Shown here: in pieces, positions 25,708 to 56,082 of the stretch
Layout: each line of letters opens with the position of its first letter
Numbering within the stretch: the first letter of the stretch is position 1
Origin: Brachybacterium fresconis
Lineage (GTDB): Bacteria > Actinomycetota > Actinomycetes > Actinomycetales > Dermabacteraceae
Length of the DNA: 64,000 bases
Reading direction: 5' to 3'
Assembly: GCF_017876515.1 (NCBI RefSeq)
Contig: NZ_JAGIOC010000001.1
Coordinates: 186,001 to 250,000, forward strand
Program-made: the position numbers and the translations under genes
The notes under the pieces: model-generated
Seen by the model: the letters and a program-made list of their open reading frames with translations, nothing else
The model's database searches: none
What the model was told of the DNA's origin: nothing

Positions 25708-26813
25708 GCGCCCTGGTGCCGTCCCCGGTGCGGATCATCGGCACGGGGCTGATCGGTGGATCCCTCGGGATGGCGCTGCGGCGCTCCGGCGCCGAGGTGC
25801 AGGTCGAGGACGTCTCCCCGGGCACCACCGCGCTGGCCGTCGAGCTCGGCGTGGGCACCGCGACCACCGCGCAGGACCCCGCCCCGGCCCTCGTGGTCGT
25901 CGCCGCCCCGCCGGACGTGACCGCGCGGATCGTCGCGGACTCCCTGGGACGCTGGCCCCGGGCCCTGGTCACCGACGTCGCCAGCGTCAAGCAGATCGTG
26001 CTCGAGGGCGTGCGCCACCACGCGGATCCCGAGGATCTCCCGCGCTACATCGGGGCGCACCCCATGGCCGGCCGCGAGGTCTCCGGGGTGATCGCCGCCC
26101 GCGGGGACCTGTTCCAGGGACGGCCCTTCGTGGTCGCCCCGCACGAAGACACCCGGCCGGAGGCCGTCAGCGTGCTCAAGGGGCTGGCCGCCGAGATCGG
26201 CTCGGTCCCGGTCGTGATGCGGCCGGCGGCCCACGACCTCGCCGTCGCCCACGTCTCCCACGCTCCGCAGGTGATGTCCAGCCTGCTCGCCACGAGCCTG
26301 CTCGCTCCCGACGAGGCGGCCCTCGGCCTGGCCGGTCAGGGGCTGCGGGACACCACCCGGATCGCCGACTCCGATCCGCGGCTGTGGGTCGAGATCCTCG
26401 GCGCGAACGCCGCGGCCGTCTCGACGGTGCTCGAGGAGGTGCGCGCACGGCTGGACGATGTGCTCGCGGCCCTGGGGACCATGCCGGGCGATCCGGACCC
26501 GTCCGTCGGCTCCCGGCGCGCCCTGGCCGAGCTGATCGCCGACGGCAACCGAGGGGTGCGCCGCATCCCCGGCAAGCACGGCGGGGCCACCGACGCCTTC
26601 GCGACGCTGACCGTCCTGGTGCCGGACCGCCCCGGGGAGCTGGCCCGCCTGCTGACCGAGATCGGCGAGATCGGCGTGAACCTCGAGGACCTCCGCCTGG
26701 AGCACGAGCTGGGACGGGAGGTGGGCCTCGCCCACGTCGCCGTGGACGCCGCCCGTGAGGACCTGCTCACGAGATCCCTCACGGAACGCGGCTGGAGGGT
26801 CGCCGACGCCTGA
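25704..26813 (+). CDS. tyrA: Prephenate dehydrogenase with ACT domain
   Basis: NAD(P)-dependent oxidative decarboxylation of prephenate to 4-hydroxyphenylpyruvate in tyrosine synthesis. The 369 residues open with the Rossmann motif [15 protein letters not shown] (about 10-24), then [14 protein letters not shown] (about 115) with the catalytic His and a helical dimer domain. The C-terminal ACT-like domain, [17 protein letters not shown] (about 293), probably binds tyrosine for feedback control. The GTG start overlaps rluB (GTGA). Confidence 0.93.
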
Positions 26814-26821
26814 GCGCCCCG

Positions 26822-26827
26822 TATCCT
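26822..26827 (+). promoter_or_regulatory. Leaderless-type promoter -10 of cmk-der
   Basis: TATCCT lies exactly six bases before the ATG at 26834, the spacing expected when transcription starts at the start codon. No Shine-Dalgarno is present before that ATG. Confidence 0.55.
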
Positions 26828-26833
26828 TGCCGG

Positions 26834-29089
26834 ATGCACACCAGCGCGCCGCACGACTCCTCCGCCCCCGCGAGAGCGGGCTTCGACCAGGGCATCACCA
26901 TCGCGATCGACGGCCCGGCCGGCTCGGGCAAGTCGACCGTCTCCCGGCTCGTCGCCGAGGCGCTGGACGGCGGCATCCTGGACACCGGGGCGATGTACCG
27001 CGCCGTCACCTGGAGCTGCCTGGCCGACGGCGTCGACCTGGCGGACCGCGAAGCCGTCGCCGCGGTGGCCGAGGCGATCGACCTGGACCTCGGCACGGAT
27101 CCCGCCGGTGCGACCGTCGCCGTCGGGGGCACCGACATCACCGCCGAGATCCGCACCGAGCGCATCTCCCAGCGGGTCAGCGACGTCGCCACCAACACGC
27201 TGGTGCGCGCCATTCTGCAGCGCCGCCAGCGCGAGGTCCTGTTCGCCACCGCCGGCGCCCGCGGCTTCTGCGTGGCCGAGGGTCGGGACATCACCACCGT
27301 CGTCGCCCCCGATGCCCATGTGCGCGTGCTGCTGACCGCCTCCGACGAGGAGCGCATGCGTCGCCGCGCCGCCGAACTGGACCTCGAGGACACCGAGGAC
27401 ACCCGCGCCCGGATGGCCGACCAGGTGCTGCGCCGGGATCGGGACGACTCCACCGTCTCCGAGTTCCTCACCGCCGCCGAGGGGGTCGACGAGGTCGACA
27501 CCACCGGGCTCGGGATCGAGGACGTCGTCGAGCAGGTGCTGATGCTCGTCGCCGCCGCCGAGACCGCCCAGGAGGAACGGCTGCACGGGACCGCGGAGGC
27601 GCCCGTCGCACCGGCACCCGCGCACCCCGGACCTGCCGCGGCAGATCCTCACGGCACCTCCGATCACGACCTCGAATCCGCTCTGCGGGTCGGTCTCGAG
27701 GACTACGAGCTGGACGAGGCGGACCGGGAGCTGCTCGAGGGGGAGCACGGCGAGGCCGCGGTGGCCGCCGCGCCGCGGAACCTGCCGGTCGTCGCCGTCG
27801 TGGGTCGGCCGAACGTCGGCAAGTCCACCTTGGTCAACCGCATCCTGGGCCGCCGCGAGGCCGTGGTCGAGGACCAGCCCGGAGTCACTCGCGACCGCGT
27901 GTTCTACGAGGCCGAATGGGTCGGCAGAGACTTCTGGCTGGTCGACACCGGAGGCTGGGAGGACCGGGTCCAGGGCATGGCGCACCGGGTCGCCGAGCAG
28001 GCCGAGGTCGCGGTCTCCCTGGCCGACGTCGTGCTGTTCATCGTCGATGCGAACGTCGGCATCACCACCACCGACGAGCAGCTGCTGCGCGTGCTGCGCC
28101 GCGCGGACCGTCCGGTGGTGCTGGTGGCCAACAAGGTCGACGACCAGCGCGGCGAGCTCGAGGCCGCCGCCCTGTGGAACCTCGGCCTGGGGGAGCCGCA
28201 CCCCGTCTCGGCGCTGCACGGCCGCGGCTCCGGCGACCTGCTGGACGCGGTCCTCGAGGCGATGCCCGAGGAGGGCCGGGGCGGGGCCGTCGACCGCGGC
28301 CCGCGCCGCATCGCCCTGCTGGGTCGCCCCAACGTCGGCAAGTCCTCCCTGCTGAACCGCCTCGCGCGGGAGCGCCGGGTGGTCGTCGACGAGGTCGCCG
28401 GCACCACCCGCGACCCGGTCGACGAGAGGATCACCCTCGGCGGCAGGGACTGGACGTTCGTGGACACCGCGGGGATCCGCCGTCGCGTGCTGCAGTCGCA
28501 GGGCGCGGACTACTACGCCTCCCTGCGCACGCGCGCCGCGCTGGACCGGGCCGAGGTCGCCGTGGTGCTGCTGGAGGCGAACGAGCCGATCTCCACCCAG
28601 GACCTCAAGATCATCGACCTGGTGCTCGAGTCGGGCCGGGCACTGGTGCTGGCCTTCAACAAGTGGGACCTGCTGGACGAGGAGCGCCACGCCCAGCTGG
28701 AGCGGGAGATCGAGCAGAACCTCGGCCATGTCGCCTGGGCGCCCCGGGTCAACATCTCCGCGCAGACCGGGCGCCACGCCGACCGCCTCGTCCCGGCCCT
28801 GGACGAGGCGCTGGAGTCCTGGGACCGTCGCATCCCGACCGGCCGTCTGAACGCCTTCCTCGGCACGCTGGTCGCCGCGCACCCGCATCCGCTGCGGGGC
28901 GGCAAGCAGTCGCGGATCCTGTTCGCGACGCAGGCCCGCACCCGGCCGCCCCGGTTCGTCATCTTCGCCAGCGGATTCCTCGAGCACGGTTACCGCCGCT
29001 TCATCGAGCGGCGCCTGCGGGAGGACTTCGAGTTCACCGGCTCCCCGATCGTCATCGGCGTCCGGATCCGGGAGAAGAGGCGACGCTGA
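26834..29089 (+). CDS. cmk-der: Bifunctional cytidylate kinase / GTPase Der
   Basis: A single 751-residue frame fuses CMP kinase with the double-GTPase Der (EngA) needed for 50S ribosome assembly. The kinase part (about 1-245) has [15 protein letters not shown] (about 26), [12 protein letters not shown] and [13 protein letters not shown] Pro/Ala/acidic linker (about 250-310) leads to the first G domain [17 protein letters not shown] (about 317) and the second [17 protein letters not shown] (about 493), each with switch and NKxD motifs (NKVD, NKWD), then the KH-like C-terminal domain. Such cmk-der fusions are known in a subset of actinobacteria. Promoter appears leaderless. Confidence 0.96.
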
Positions 29090-44999: not shown

Positions 45000-45003
45000 T
45001 CTC

Positions 45004-45036
45004 GGTCGGGCTGACAGGATTTGAACCTGCGACCCC
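45004..45036 (-). other. Attachment-site remnant: 3' end of a tRNA-Pro-like gene
   Basis: On the minus strand the T-arm GCAGG-TTCAAAT-CCTGT, the 3' acceptor strand CAGCCCG and the discriminator A plus CC are present, as in actinobacterial tRNA-Pro (5' acceptor would be CGGGCTG). The sequence 5' of the T-arm does not form an anticodon arm, so only the last ~33 bases of a tRNA are here. This is what is left at one side of an element that integrated into the tRNA 3' end. An intact tRNA should lie at the other side, beyond this window. The adjacent integrase supports this. Confidence 0.75.
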
Positions 45037-45137
45037 ATGACTCTGCGCCAATCAAGGTTTGATGTCCTGGTAGTGCGGAGAACGTGCAGGCAGTTGACGG
45101 TTGTGTGCGCTCGGAGACTTCACGGAGACTCCCGGAT

Positions 45138-45180: not shown

Positions 45181-46415
45181 TTCTCGAAGATTCCGGCCGC
45201 CGCAGAGACCACAGCCTCGGTGCTCGTCACGGCCGTGTACCGCTGCCGGTTGACCGCCGCCGTGTGGCCGAAGAGCCGGGTGCGGGTCGCCTCGGGAAGC
45301 ACGTCGTACAGCAGCGTGTTGTTCGTGGTGCGCCAGGAGTGCCCCCGCTCGTACTCGAACATCTCGATGTGGAGCTGCTCGGCGAGCTCCCGGTAGAGCG
45401 CCGCGAGCTTCCGATCACGGTTGCGGGGGTCCCAGACCTTCGCTTGGTCAGTCGGCGAAGGGAAGAGCCACGGACTCCCAGAATCCAGCCGCGTCGCGAG
45501 ACGCTTACTGACCGCGGGAGCAAGGACAGGTACTGGACGGCCCGTACGCGTCTTCGTGGCATCCGGGGGCAGTTCGACGATGAAGGTGCCGGAGGCGTCC
45601 ACGTGGCAGTCCTCCGTGGGCCTCATGCACAGCTCGGAGGTGCGGAGCCCCGTCGTCGCTTGCGCGAGCACGATGTCGATGCATGCGGCCCGCTCGATCA
45701 CCCGTTGCTCCCGCGTCCACCGTCCGCGCTTCGGCGCTTCCACATCCTCCGGGTCGGCGGCGAGTAGGTACTCGATGGCCGCGCGGTACTGCTCCGCGGT
45801 CAGCGCCCGCCCGCCCCGCGAGTATGCCGGCCTCTTGGCCCCGGACAGGTCGAGGTCCAGATCCATGAGGGGGTTGTACTCGATCACCTCGTCCACGCGC
45901 AGCGGTGCCGCCAGGTACTTCTTCGCCACCGTCTTCGCATGCTTCGCGTTGACCGCACCGTGCAGTCTCCCGATCTCCTCCAGACACGAGGTCAGGGCCC
46001 GGGGCCGCATCGCCTCTCGCAGCGAGAGACCGGCCAACGCATGGGCGTGCTTGCATGCCTCGTCTCCGCACTCGCCGCGCAGTAGCCGGTAGGCCAGCTC
46101 GTAACGTCTCGTGGTGCTGTCGGCGAGACGCTCAGCACGAATAGCCGGGAGGGTGACCGTGTCCAGATAGTCGAGGGTCTTGCTGGTGCCCTTCCATCCA
46201 CCGTCGCCGGAACCACTCAATAGGTCTGCAGCCCTCGCCCTCGCTCGAGCCCTGACCTTGCCCTTCGCCGGCCCCTGGGTGAGCGGGCGCATGAGCCGTC
46301 CGCTATGAAGCCGAATCGACCAACGCATAGCGAAACCGTCGCGGTACGGGAATACCTGAGCCCTGTCGATGCTGTGTTCCCCGGGTTCCAACCTGGTGGT
46401 CGCGGCTCGGGACAT
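45177..46415 (-). CDS. Tyrosine integrase of the tRNA-Pro element
   Basis: Site-specific recombinase of 412 residues that probably integrated the element at the tRNA 3' end 140 bp away. The C-terminal catalytic domain has Arg in TTGLRTSELC (about 265), HSWRTTNNTL (His-x-x-Arg, about 358), GHTAAVNRQRY with the second His and the nucleophilic Tyr (about 385). The middle part is a core-binding domain (about 85-190). The frame opens 27 bases earlier, but the ATG at 46415 is preceded by AGAGGAGATGGGAGC. Orientation toward the attachment site is standard for integrative elements. Confidence 0.93.
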   Translation of the reverse strand: MSRAATTRLEPGEHSIDRAQVFPYRDGFAMRWSIRLHSGRLMRPLTQGPAKGKVRARARARAADLLSGSGDGGWKGTSKTLDYLDTVTLPAIRAERLADSTTRRYELAYRLLRGECGDEACKHAHALAGLSLREAMRPRALTSCLEEIGRLHGAVNAKHAKTVAKKYLAAPLRVDEVIEYNPLMDLDLDLSGAKRPAYSRGGRALTAEQYRAAIEYLLAADPEDVEAPKRGRWTREQRVIERAACIDIVLAQATTGLRTSELCMRPTEDCHVDASGTFIVELPPDATKTRTGRPVPVLAPAVSKRLATRLDSGSPWLFPSPTDQAKVWDPRNRDRKLAALYRELAEQLHIEMFEYERGHSWRTTNNTLLYDVLPEATRTRLFGHTAAVNRQRYTAVTSTEAVVSAAAGIFEK

Positions 46416-46493
46416 GCTCCCATCTCCTCTCGTCGTCCACATCAGCCTAAGCCGCGATCGTCGTCGGCGTAGTCCCCCTGTACTGAACCCGCC

Positions 46494-46585
46494 GGGAGAT
46501 CAGCAGTCCGCGAGCAGGGAGATGAACGGTCCGCTGACGAGGAGATCAACTGCCCGACCACAGGGAGATCACTCCATCCCGTCAC
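46494..46585. repeat. Four direct repeats with exact 23-bp period
   Basis: Copies of GGGAGAT or AGGAGAT end at 46500, 46523, 46546 and 46569, exactly 23 bases apart; each continues with a related tail (CA-C/GTCC-like). They fill part of the 315-bp gap between the integrase and the excisionase-like gene, both of which start outward from it. They may be iteron-like protein-binding sites or the repeated terminal sites of a lost IS21-type element. The rest of the gap shows no gene. Confidence 0.8.
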
Positions 46586-46757
46586 ATGGCACTCCGCACG
46601 GGTCCGGAGCAGCTTGCACCAGGAGGACTTCGCGTTAAGCACCATGATCCCTGCTGTGCCCGCCGTTACCTCTGCGACATGTCCCGTGAGTCCTCGCCCC
46701 CGCCCACTGATGGGAGCACGAGGGGCCGAGTCGCGGCCCCAGTAAGATCCGGAGGAC

Positions 46758-46979
46758 ATGATGCCCCGCAAGACACAGCCCCGCGAGGGTGCGACGATCG
46801 ACGACCTGCTCACCGCCCGCGAAGTGGGAGAGATACTCGGGCTCTCCGCAGGCACACTTGCGAACTGGCGGAGCCTCGGGATCGGCCCCACCAACTTCAA
46901 GGTCGGCGGGCGCGTCAGGTACCGTGCTTCAAGCGTCAACGACTGGATCGCAGAGCAGGAGCACGACGCCGTCGGCTGA
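46758..46979 (+). CDS. Excisionase-like helix-turn-helix protein
   Basis: A 73-residue DNA-binding protein of the MerR/excisionase (HTH_17) type. LLTAREVGEILGLSAGTLANW is the helix-turn-helix (split about 17-37) and GPTNFKVGGRVRYRASSVNDW is the wing, ending in an acidic tail. Such proteins act as directionality factors that help the integrase excise an element. GGAGGAC precedes the ATG. It lies divergent from the integrase across the 23-bp repeat array. Confidence 0.85.
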   Translation: MMPRKTQPREGATIDDLLTAREVGEILGLSAGTLANWRSLGIGPTNFKVGGRVRYRASSVNDWIAEQEHDAVG

Positions 46980-47128
46980 GCGCCACCCGTCGGGCCGGTA
47001 CTCAGTGGCGAACTGGACCCCCTTGGACGTCCCGGCGGCACTGATCGATGAAGGCCTGGGTCGTGTGGGGCCGAGGGGCAGGATGCGTGCTCTGCTCGCT
47101 CCGGCCCGAGGACTCGGAGGGAGATGCC

Positions 47129-47324
47129 GTGGGTGCAGAGCTCGAAACCACGTCCCCGTATATCCCTGCGATCAGCCCCGAGGACGTCCAAAGCGTCGGG
47201 AACCTCCTGACATCCAGTAGGTCCGCAGAGACGCGCCGCTCCTACGCCTCCGCCATCCGCACCTTCACCACCTGGTGCCGCGAGCGCGGATACCGTAGCT
47301 TCCCGGCCTCACCTGAAGTTATCG
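47129..47324 (+). pseudogene. Truncated tyrosine recombinase, N-terminal fragment
   Basis: The GTG at 47129, preceded by GGAGGGAG, starts a frame of about 65 residues containing LLTSSRSAETRRSYASAIRT followed by a Trp/Cys-Arg motif and FPASPEVI, the core-binding domain of XerC/D-like phage integrases. It stops exactly where the left end of the ISL3 element begins (47325). The rest of the gene is not found to the right of the element, so the insertion was accompanied or followed by a deletion. Confidence 0.75.
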
Positions 47325-48769
47325 GGCTCTTCCCGGTTCGTGGTGATGGGGAGCGTCGCGTCGTTGGCGTAGAACGGCTCGTGGTCCTGCTGTGATGGGT
47401 GTTGTCAAGACATCCACATTCCAGAGGACCACGAGCCTGTGCACGAGAATACTGGTTCGCAGCGGGATGCTGCGAGCACGATCTTCAACCTGCCCAACTA
47501 CCGCGTCATCGATGCCGTCGACCTGCCCGATGGCAGCCGGCGGGTGGTGATCGCCTCGACCGTCCCGCCGGGCTGTCCGTCCTGCGGGGCGCTCGCGACG
47601 CAGGTCCACTCCCGCCGGATGCAGCAAGTCAGGGACGTTCCCGTCGCCGGGGCGACGGTGGTGGTGTGGGCCAAGCGGCGCTGGTTCTGTCTCGAGCCGG
47701 CCTGCGCCCGGGGCACGTTCGCTGAGGCCACCGAGCAGATCCCCCGATACGCCCGCTCGACCACCAGGCTGCGCGATCAAGTCGTCTCGGCCGTGATCAC
47801 CTCCGGCCGGGCAGCTTCCGAGGTCGCCCGGGCCCACGGCGTCTCGTGGTGGCTGGTCCAGGCCGCCCTCAGCGCCGCTGCCGTGGTCCTGACCGACGTC
47901 GAGAAGACGTGCGTGACCCGGCTGGGCATCGATGAGCACCGCTACCGGTCAGTGCGCTGGTTCCGCACCGATCAGGGCTCCTGGAGGCGGTTCGAGCCGT
48001 GGATGACGACACTGGTCGACCTGGCCACCGGGCAGGTCCTGGGCATCGTCGACGGCCGCGACAGCGCCACCGTCGGGGACTGGCTCGCCCAGCGCTCCGA
48101 GGCCTGGCGGGAGCGGATCGAGATCGTCGCGATCGACCCCTCGGCCGCGTTCCGCAAAGCACTACGGACCTACCTGCCCCGCGCCGCGGTCTCGGTCGAC
48201 AAGTTCCACCTCGTAAAGCTCGGCAACGACATGGTCACCACCATCAGGCAGCGCCTGGCCCGCACCCACCGCGGTCGCCGGGGCCGCAAGGACGACCCGG
48301 CCTGGGCCCACCGGATGCTGCTGCTACGCGGCGGCGACACCCTCACCCCGCGAGCCTGGGAGCGGCTCGAGGACGTGTTCCGCACCGATGACCCCACCGA
48401 CGAGCTCTCCGCCGCCTGGGGCATCAAGGAGCAACTCCGCCGCCTGCTGGCCACCGACACCCTCGCCCAGGCCTGGGACGAACGGATGCGGATGGGCTAC
48501 TTCGCCCAGATCGCGAACATGCCCGAGGCGACAAAGCTCTACGACACCGTCGTGGCCTGGTGGGACGCGATCGAGGTCCTCATCGTCACCGGCGCGACCA
48601 CCGCCCGCGTCGAGGCCGCGAACACCGGCATCAAGAACATCAAACGCACCGGCCGCGGATTCCGCAACGCGGAGAACTACCGGATGCGTATCCTGCTGAC
48701 CAGCGCCGCGAGAACCGTAGCGTGAACACCCTCCACAGCAGGGTCATTCACCACGAACCGCGAAGAGCC
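47325..48769 (+). mobile_element. ISL3-family insertion sequence
   Basis: About 1.45 kb bounded by inverted repeats: GGCTCTTCCCGGTTCGTGGT at the left and, on the reverse strand of the right end, GGCTCTTCGCGGTTCGTGGT (19 of 20 identical). It holds one complete transposase gene. The flanking octamers differ (AGTTATCG left, GTCTACGG right), so the usual 8-bp target duplication is absent, pointing to a rearrangement after insertion. Confidence 0.9.
47439..48725 (+). CDS. ISL3-family transposase
   Basis: DDE transposase of 428 residues. The N-terminal zinc-ribbon has CPSCGALATQVH and FCLEPAC, then a helix-turn-helix (GRAASEVARAHGVSWWLVQ). The catalytic acidic residues are in RLGIDEHRYRS (about 165), IEIVAIDPSAAFRKAL (about 228) and RVEAANTGIKNIKR (about 400). 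The frame is intact with a GTG start, so the copy may be active. Confidence 0.95.
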   Translation: MHENTGSQRDAASTIFNLPNYRVIDAVDLPDGSRRVVIASTVPPGCPSCGALATQVHSRRMQQVRDVPVAGATVVVWAKRRWFCLEPACARGTFAEATEQIPRYARSTTRLRDQVVSAVITSGRAASEVARAHGVSWWLVQAALSAAAVVLTDVEKTCVTRLGIDEHRYRSVRWFRTDQGSWRRFEPWMTTLVDLATGQVLGIVDGRDSATVGDWLAQRSEAWRERIEIVAIDPSAAFRKALRTYLPRAAVSVDKFHLVKLGNDMVTTIRQRLARTHRGRRGRKDDPAWAHRMLLLRGGDTLTPRAWERLEDVFRTDDPTDELSAAWGIKEQLRRLLATDTLAQAWDERMRMGYFAQIANMPEATKLYDTVVAWWDAIEVLIVTGATTARVEAANTGIKNIKRTGRGFRNAENYRMRILLTSAARTVA

Positions 48770-54699: not shown

Positions 54700-54758
54700 A
54701 CGTCGAGGTCTCCCGACGACGGAGGTTCCTACGCCATCCATCCGAAAGACCTCGACGT
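54700..54758 (+). promoter_or_regulatory. Inverted repeat over the transposase start
   Basis: ACGTCGAGGTCT (54700-54711) is perfectly complementary to AGACCTCGACGT (54747-54758), whose end includes the GTG start (54757). In an mRNA reading in from outside, the hairpin would hide the start codon; the same structure is kept in the end fragment at 52011. Confidence 0.75.
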
Positions 54759-56082
54759 GTCCGACGCTACCCCGCCGGCCGGCTTCGGCCGCCCTGACCT
54801 GACCGCCTTCGCTCGACTCGACGGCCTCGGTCTGAGCGTGACCGGGCAACGACTTGAACCGGATCGTGCGGTCCTCGCGTGCCGCGTGGTGGAACCAGAT
54901 CAGTGGTGCCGACGGTGCGGCAGCGAAGGCGCTGCTCGTGACACCGTGATCCGGCGGTTGGCCCACGAGCCGCTGGGCTGGCGACCGACCGTGCTGGAAG
55001 TTGTAGTGCGCCGCTACCGCTGTGCCGACTGCGGACACGTGTGGCGCCAAGACACCAGCGCCGCGGCGGAGCCACGCGCGAAGCTCTCGCGCACCGGGCT
55101 GCGGTGGGCGCTGGAAGGGATCGTGGTCGCACACCTCACCGTCGCCCGTGTCGCCGAGGGACTCGGGGTCGCGTGGGACACCGCCAACAACGCGGTCCTG
55201 GCCGAAGGCAAGCGGCTGCTGATCAACGACCCCACGCGGTTCGAGTGCGTGAAGGTCATTGGCGTCGATGAGCACGTCTGGCGCCACACCAGGCGTGGCG
55301 ACAAGTACGTCACCGTGATCATCGACCTCACCCCGGTCCGCGATGGCGCCGGCCCAGCAAGGCTGCTGGACATGGTCGAGGGCCGGTCGAAGGCGGCGTT
55401 CAAGACCTGGCTCGCCGACCGCGACGACGCCTTCCGTGACGCGGTCGAGGTGGTCGCGATGGACGGCTTCACCGGGTTCAAGACCGCCGCTGCAGAGGAG
55501 ATCCCGGACGCGGTCACGGTGATGGATCCCTTCCACGTCGTGCGCTTGGCCGGTGACGCCCTCGACAGGTGCCGGCGCCGGGTCCAACTCGCGATCCACG
55601 GGCACCGTGAGTTCAGGGACGACCCGCTCTACAAGTCGCGGCGCACGCTGCACACCGGCGCGGACCTGCTCACTGACAAGCAGAGCGACAGGCTACGCGC
55701 GCTGTTCGTTGATGACGCTCACGTCGAGGTCGAGGCGACCTGGGGTGTCTACCAGCGCATGATCGCCGCCTATCGCCACGAGGACCGGCAACGTGGCCGC
55801 GAGCTCATGGAGAAGCTGATCACCGACCTCAGCGCCGGCGTCCCCAAGGTGCTCACCGAGCTCACCACCCTGGGCCGGACCCTGAAGAAGCGAGCCGCTG
55901 ACGTGCTCGCCTACTTCGAACGACCCGGCACCAGCAACGGGCCGACCGAGGCGCTCAACGGACGGCTCGAACACCTGCGCGGCTCCGCACTCGGGTTCCG
56001 CAACCTGACCAACTACATCGCCCGAAGCCTGCTCGAGACCGGCGGCTTCAGACCCCAACTTCTACACCCCCGATTGGGATGA
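54757..56082 (+). CDS. ISL3-family transposase
   Basis: DDE transposase of 441 residues, a different subgroup from the copy at 47439. The zinc ribbon is CRRCGSEG with a second pair CADCGHVW; the catalytic acids are in VIGVDEHVWRH (about 170), VEVVAMDGFTGFKTAA (about 232) and GPTEALNGRLEHLR (about 395). It is intact. Translation is probably limited by the hairpin over its GTG start. Confidence 0.95.
   Translation: MSDATPPAGFGRPDLTAFARLDGLGLSVTGQRLEPDRAVLACRVVEPDQWCRRCGSEGAARDTVIRRLAHEPLGWRPTVLEVVVRRYRCADCGHVWRQDTSAAAEPRAKLSRTGLRWALEGIVVAHLTVARVAEGLGVAWDTANNAVLAEGKRLLINDPTRFECVKVIGVDEHVWRHTRRGDKYVTVIIDLTPVRDGAGPARLLDMVEGRSKAAFKTWLADRDDAFRDAVEVVAMDGFTGFKTAAAEEIPDAVTVMDPFHVVRLAGDALDRCRRRVQLAIHGHREFRDDPLYKSRRTLHTGADLLTDKQSDRLRALFVDDAHVEVEATWGVYQRMIAAYRHEDRQRGRELMEKLITDLSAGVPKVLTELTTLGRTLKKRAADVLAYFERPGTSNGPTEALNGRLEHLRGSALGFRNLTNYIARSLLETGGFRPQLLHPRLG

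Follow-up and report, generated by a model that had tools for sequence, protein, structure and literature searches.

A complete insertion sequence of the IS21 family has, at either end, multiple binding sites for its transposase IstA, repeated in direct orientation; the outermost of these terminates in CA, and it is there that IstA links the element to the target DNA. Int arm-type, RDF, or operator arrays of integrative elements likewise consist of short direct repeats beside an integrase gene (int) and an excisionase-like gene. Published work on IS21, in the portions drawn upon here, describes ends that are built of direct repeats (R1/R2), integration by IstA that requires two complete repeats, an IstA tetramer that joins two IS21 ends, and insertions that give 5-bp duplications (PMC10122671). 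The actinobacterial IS21-family element ISMyo2 from Mycobacterium yongonense has, according to an excerpt of its description, three end repeats on the left and two on the right (PMC4608216). The locus described here resembles ISMyo2 in possessing several end repeats and differs from it in that ISMyo2, in the same excerpt, is a complete element with another repeat sequence (ATGGGACCACC...) (PMC4608216).

The window, i.e., the whole stretch of 64,000 nucleotides that was analysed, contains an array that is organized like the right ends of IS21 elements encoding istA and istB: four 23-bp repeats with a GGAGAT core begin 7-8 bases past an istB stop codon, and the outermost of them ends in CA. With a probability of roughly 96%, this array represents the right end of an insertion sequence of the IS21 family, a truncated relic of about 140 bp that persists in the spacer between an int gene and an HTH gene. 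Unlike a complete IS21 element, the window keeps only the right end together with an istB tail of about 40 bp, and the lack of istA, of a left end, and of a target duplication weighs against this interpretation. The four GGAGAT copies and their exact 23-bp period, to which a sequence-only reading had drawn attention, are found as described, with all four cores intact, starting at 46495, 46518, 46541, and 46564 and ending at 46500, 46523, 46546, and 46569. The feature is broader than it had first been described, extending from the istB tail, which starts near 46445-46450, to the CA terminus at 46586. On the forward strand it comprises a decayed 3' tail of istB (46445-46486), recognized by ungapped alignment to IS21 right ends and by its translation A*AAIVVGVVPLY*, and then four right-end repeats, which in our own numbering are R4 (46495-46517, innermost), R3 (46518-46540), R2 (46541-46563), and R1 (46564-46586, outermost, with the terminal CA at 46585-46586). 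R4, R3, and R2 are placed by core scan and alignment, and R1 by its gap-free alignment with ...TTGACA, the sequence in which complete IS21 copies with 5-bp target duplications terminate.

When the whole window was scanned for any 6-mer occurring four times at one constant spacing of 10-60 bp, just two such arrays were obtained: the GGAGAT array and, at 517-615, a perfect tandem repeat of the 7-bp unit CTGGGAG in 14.1 copies. Among 100 sequences of 64 kb simulated with a first-order Markov model, none contained a four-fold 6-mer with fixed spacing, and the periodicity of the GGAGAT array is far above chance.

The neighbors of the array are an integrase gene and an excisionase-like gene, as had been read from the sequence, and both belong to the context outside the IS21 relic. 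The tyrosine recombinase (integrase) gene P0001 (45177-46442, reverse strand) matches Phage_integrase of Pfam with an E value of 1.1e-5 and 25.8 bits, slightly below the curated cutoff of 27.1, and the small excisionase-like gene (46758-46979, forward strand) codes for a protein of 73 amino acids that matches HTH_17 of Pfam with an E value of 6.2e-10. The two genes are divergent, and the array lies in the spacer between them, directly upstream of int. NCBIfam matched no family to the integrase, the HTH protein, or the ORF at 47048-47395. This last frame of 115 amino acids, starting at 47048 and equally without a Pfam match, looks by eye like the start of a recombinase, and its end adjoins an ISL3 transposase gene (47439-48725). 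Since the similarity to L010, a relative of the int locus, ends at 47332, an ISL3 element was probably inserted at about this position; a second ISL3-family transposase gene is situated at 54757-56082 (NCBIfam, 362 bits). Downstream of int, at about 45002-45045, there is a stretch resembling the 3' half of a tRNA, TCGGTCGGGCTGACAGGATTTGAACCTGCGACCCC, which is common to four of the five int relatives compared (L010, L012, L013, and L014), with differing DNA on its far side, while L011 has just its first part. This stretch is probably an attachment site. ARAGORN detected no whole tRNA in the window, nor beside int in any of six loci.

Complete IS21 elements carrying arrays of the same type exist in the same genome. 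A search of this genome with the pattern GGAGAT-N17-GGAGAT-N17-GGAGAT, allowing up to two mismatches, gives six matches, which fall at three places. One is the window; at each of the other two, the array lies directly behind an IstB frame of 260 amino acids, beginning 7-8 bases past its stop codon. Profile scans with the protein of one of the latter two places assign it to PF01695 IstB_IS21 (E value 4.8e-48) and to IS21_help_AAA of NCBIfam (217.7 bits, cutoff 200). An alignment of the two copies spans 2,629 bases with 99.8% identity, their left ends possess repeats of the same type as the right-end array, and with the ends set at TG and CA their flanks show target duplications of 5 bp, GTCTA in one case and GACGG in the other. 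The copy at L007 measures 2,628 bp, begins with TGCTAG, and ends with TTGACA (TG...CA). The long frame upstream of its istB contains a Mu transposase C-terminal domain (E value 1.4e-8) and an rve integrase core slightly below cutoff, domains that would be expected of IstA.

The relationship of the window array to such right ends extends well beyond the repeat cores. Window positions 46445-46593 align without gaps, over 149 positions, to the right end of G037's IS21 copy with a score of 146, the maximum among 300 Markov nulls being 38. G037 belongs to the same genus; its IstB shows 93% identity, and its IS21 copy is flanked by the target duplication CCGCG. Five more IS21 right ends, aligned to the window array with or without gaps, score 75-125 against null maxima of 31-39. 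The terminal CA of complete copies lies in register with window positions 46585-46586, and leftward of the array the alignment carries on across the istB stop codon and into the gene itself. There, the window frame A*AAIVVGVVPLY* corresponds to ...ATAGHGVVPLT* of an intact IstB, and because of its internal stop the istB tail is a decayed remnant. The earlier statement that no IS21 transposase is visible stands for the window itself, where tblastn searches gave best E values of 0.65 for IstA and 0.017 for IstB; its cause, however, is truncation, and a decayed istB tail persists. By the same tblastn search, istA is absent from the window, and the tail is missed when the whole IstB is the query, the best match lying at 26774-27022. 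Among the matches listed by blastn of complete IS21 copies on the window, the array is the best (E value 1.7e-19) and the next has an E value of 0.001 or worse. A left end was not found in the window beyond the array, as left-end repeats match the array only, on the other strand and with E values of at least 0.04 among the matches listed. A target duplication cannot be shown at the window locus.

Surveys of other genomes place such arrays mainly at the ends of istA/istB elements. Among 47 genomes of the family, the three-core pattern with one mismatch allowed occurs ten times, in three genomes and at seven places, four of which lie behind istB or its remains, two at int loci, and one at neither. 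The four istB-linked places comprise two in G000 and two in G037, one with an intact and one with a truncated, frameshifted istB; the two int loci are the window and its relative in G037. The remaining place (L017 in G039, with one mismatch) speaks against the IS21 interpretation inasmuch as it is near neither istB nor int; it is probably due to chance and has been kept in the count. Apart from the int loci, therefore, four of the five family places are behind istB or remains of it. Across the order (396 genomes), the four-core pattern with one mismatch allowed is found at four places in three genomes, namely the window, two IS21 copies whose istB is intact (G000 and G037), and one broken istB (G316), so that three of the four are behind istB and the fourth is the window. 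Window positions 46436-46640 match 13 plasmid records, all from Rhodococcus, and in each of the seven that were opened (best place each) the match starts at most 35 bases from the end of istB or of an istB remnant. Viral contigs contain no match to the exact four-core pattern with zero mismatches. The search for the repeats in related elements that the sequence-only reading had proposed thus leads, outside int loci, mostly to element ends behind istB, and its alternative suggestion of an IS21-type terminus is borne out by same-type arrays directly behind istB in this and other genomes. On plasmid pR1CP1 of Rhodococcus opacus (L023, 450-3084), a further truncated copy of istB (residues 174-260), together with its right-end array, sits close to three annotated tyrosine recombinase genes, a trio which we take to resemble a recombinase-in-trio element.

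Relatives of the int gene, defined by matches with an E value of 1e-20 or better, occur in 7 of the 47 family genomes, that of the window included. The array is present in L010 (int 99% identical) and L011 (96%), which together with the window makes three int loci, and it is absent from L012 (90%, int with one in-frame stop) and L013 (89%). No array was seen in L015, where int is only 35% identical, and the spacer of L014 could not be scored for the array, as int is cut short there by other DNA. The DNA interrupting int in L014 (2594-3860) is by eye presumably an IS3-type transposase pair. A search of further genome contigs for int gave two loci (L021 and L022), which are not counted again beside G036 and G013. 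Among named records, B. tyrofermentans and B. massiliense have the closest int genes.

An alternative, though an improbable one, is that the relic was co-opted secondarily and now either contributes to the int promoter region or is still bound by IstA from the resident copies. The array does lie immediately upstream of int, the two IS21 copies resident in the genome are nearly identical and have similar repeats, and the window retains the four cores intact; against this, a scan of 46350-46800 for promoters and terminators found none, although it is limited to sigma-70-like promoters and blind to other types, and there is no sign of conservation in L010 or L011. Between the window and L010, 10 of 100 array positions differ, compared with 10 of 171 in the rest of the spacer (46587-46757); for L011 the corresponding numbers are 16 of 99 and 28 of 171. 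Three of the 24 core bases are changed in each of the two relatives, and in L011 one base is gone from the first repeat, which breaks the 23-bp spacing. Differences in int amount to 22 (L010) and 68 (L011) of 1,239 positions, and those in the HTH gene to 7 and 16 of 222. As modest evidence, in keeping with the other findings, these two comparisons suggest that the array changes about as fast as, or faster than, the adjoining non-coding DNA. It is quite doubtful that the truncated IS21 end in the int upstream region might be bound by resident IstA and might in this way affect int expression or act in trans on the integrative element.

It is very unlikely that the array, flanked as it is by the divergent int and HTH genes, represents a genuine control region of the integrative element, whether with arm-type Int sites, RDF (Xis) sites, or operators for a repressor. 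Its location between int and the HTH_17 gene, its strict 23-bp spacing, and its occurrence at three int loci would suit such a role, but int relatives with 89-90% identity do without it, the cores are altered where it is shared, the spacing is broken in L011, and same-type arrays elsewhere sit behind istB. The array is missing at L012 and L013, and the element-control array (iterons, RDF or repressor sites) that the earlier interpretation offered beside the IS21 one is rejected in view of this absence, of the unconserved cores, and of the IS21 homology. Unlike Int arm-type, RDF, or operator arrays, the window array is not conserved with int and is derived from an insertion sequence. Chance periodicity or simple tandem duplication has a negligible probability, since, even if exact sharing across the four units is limited to six bases, none of the 100 simulated windows yielded such an array and the ungapped match across 149 positions to an IS21 right end refutes it.

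Returning to the IS21 relic, an IS21 copy would have entered the int-HTH spacer at a locus ancestral to those of the window, G037, and G023, and everything except the last 40 bp or so of istB and the right-end array would have been lost later, insertion presumably preceding loss. By analogy with published work on IS21, the four window repeats would be former IstA binding sites, and R1 (46564-46586) would hold the terminus that was once cleaved and joined by IstA. The istB tail is nearly unchanged among the three int loci, differing at 1 of 37 positions in L010 and 3 of 36 in L011, which weighs against the IS21 reading. A further difficulty arises from L013, whose similarity to the window ends at 46449, near the istB junction, and resumes at 46589, three bases beyond the IS21 terminus. 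Between these breakpoints, L013 holds 140 bp of DNA where the window has 139 bp, and scored over 145 bp this stretch reaches 21 with the window and 28 with the IS21 end, the maximum of 300 letter shuffles being 42; it resembles neither of them. As L013 contains unrelated DNA of nearly equal length, a simple insertion into an otherwise matching spacer is not shown, and an insertion with a neighboring deletion, or a replacement, must be assumed.

The array is the truncated end of an already known kind of element. Lacking istA, the left end, and all but the tail of istB, the relic cannot move by itself, and it is presumably without function now. A tempting false lead is thereby removed, as a regular array between int and an excisionase-like gene turns out to be a scar left by an insertion sequence. 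In practice, direct repeats of 23 bp that contain GGAGAT and are met in actinobacterial DNA should be compared with IS21 ends first.
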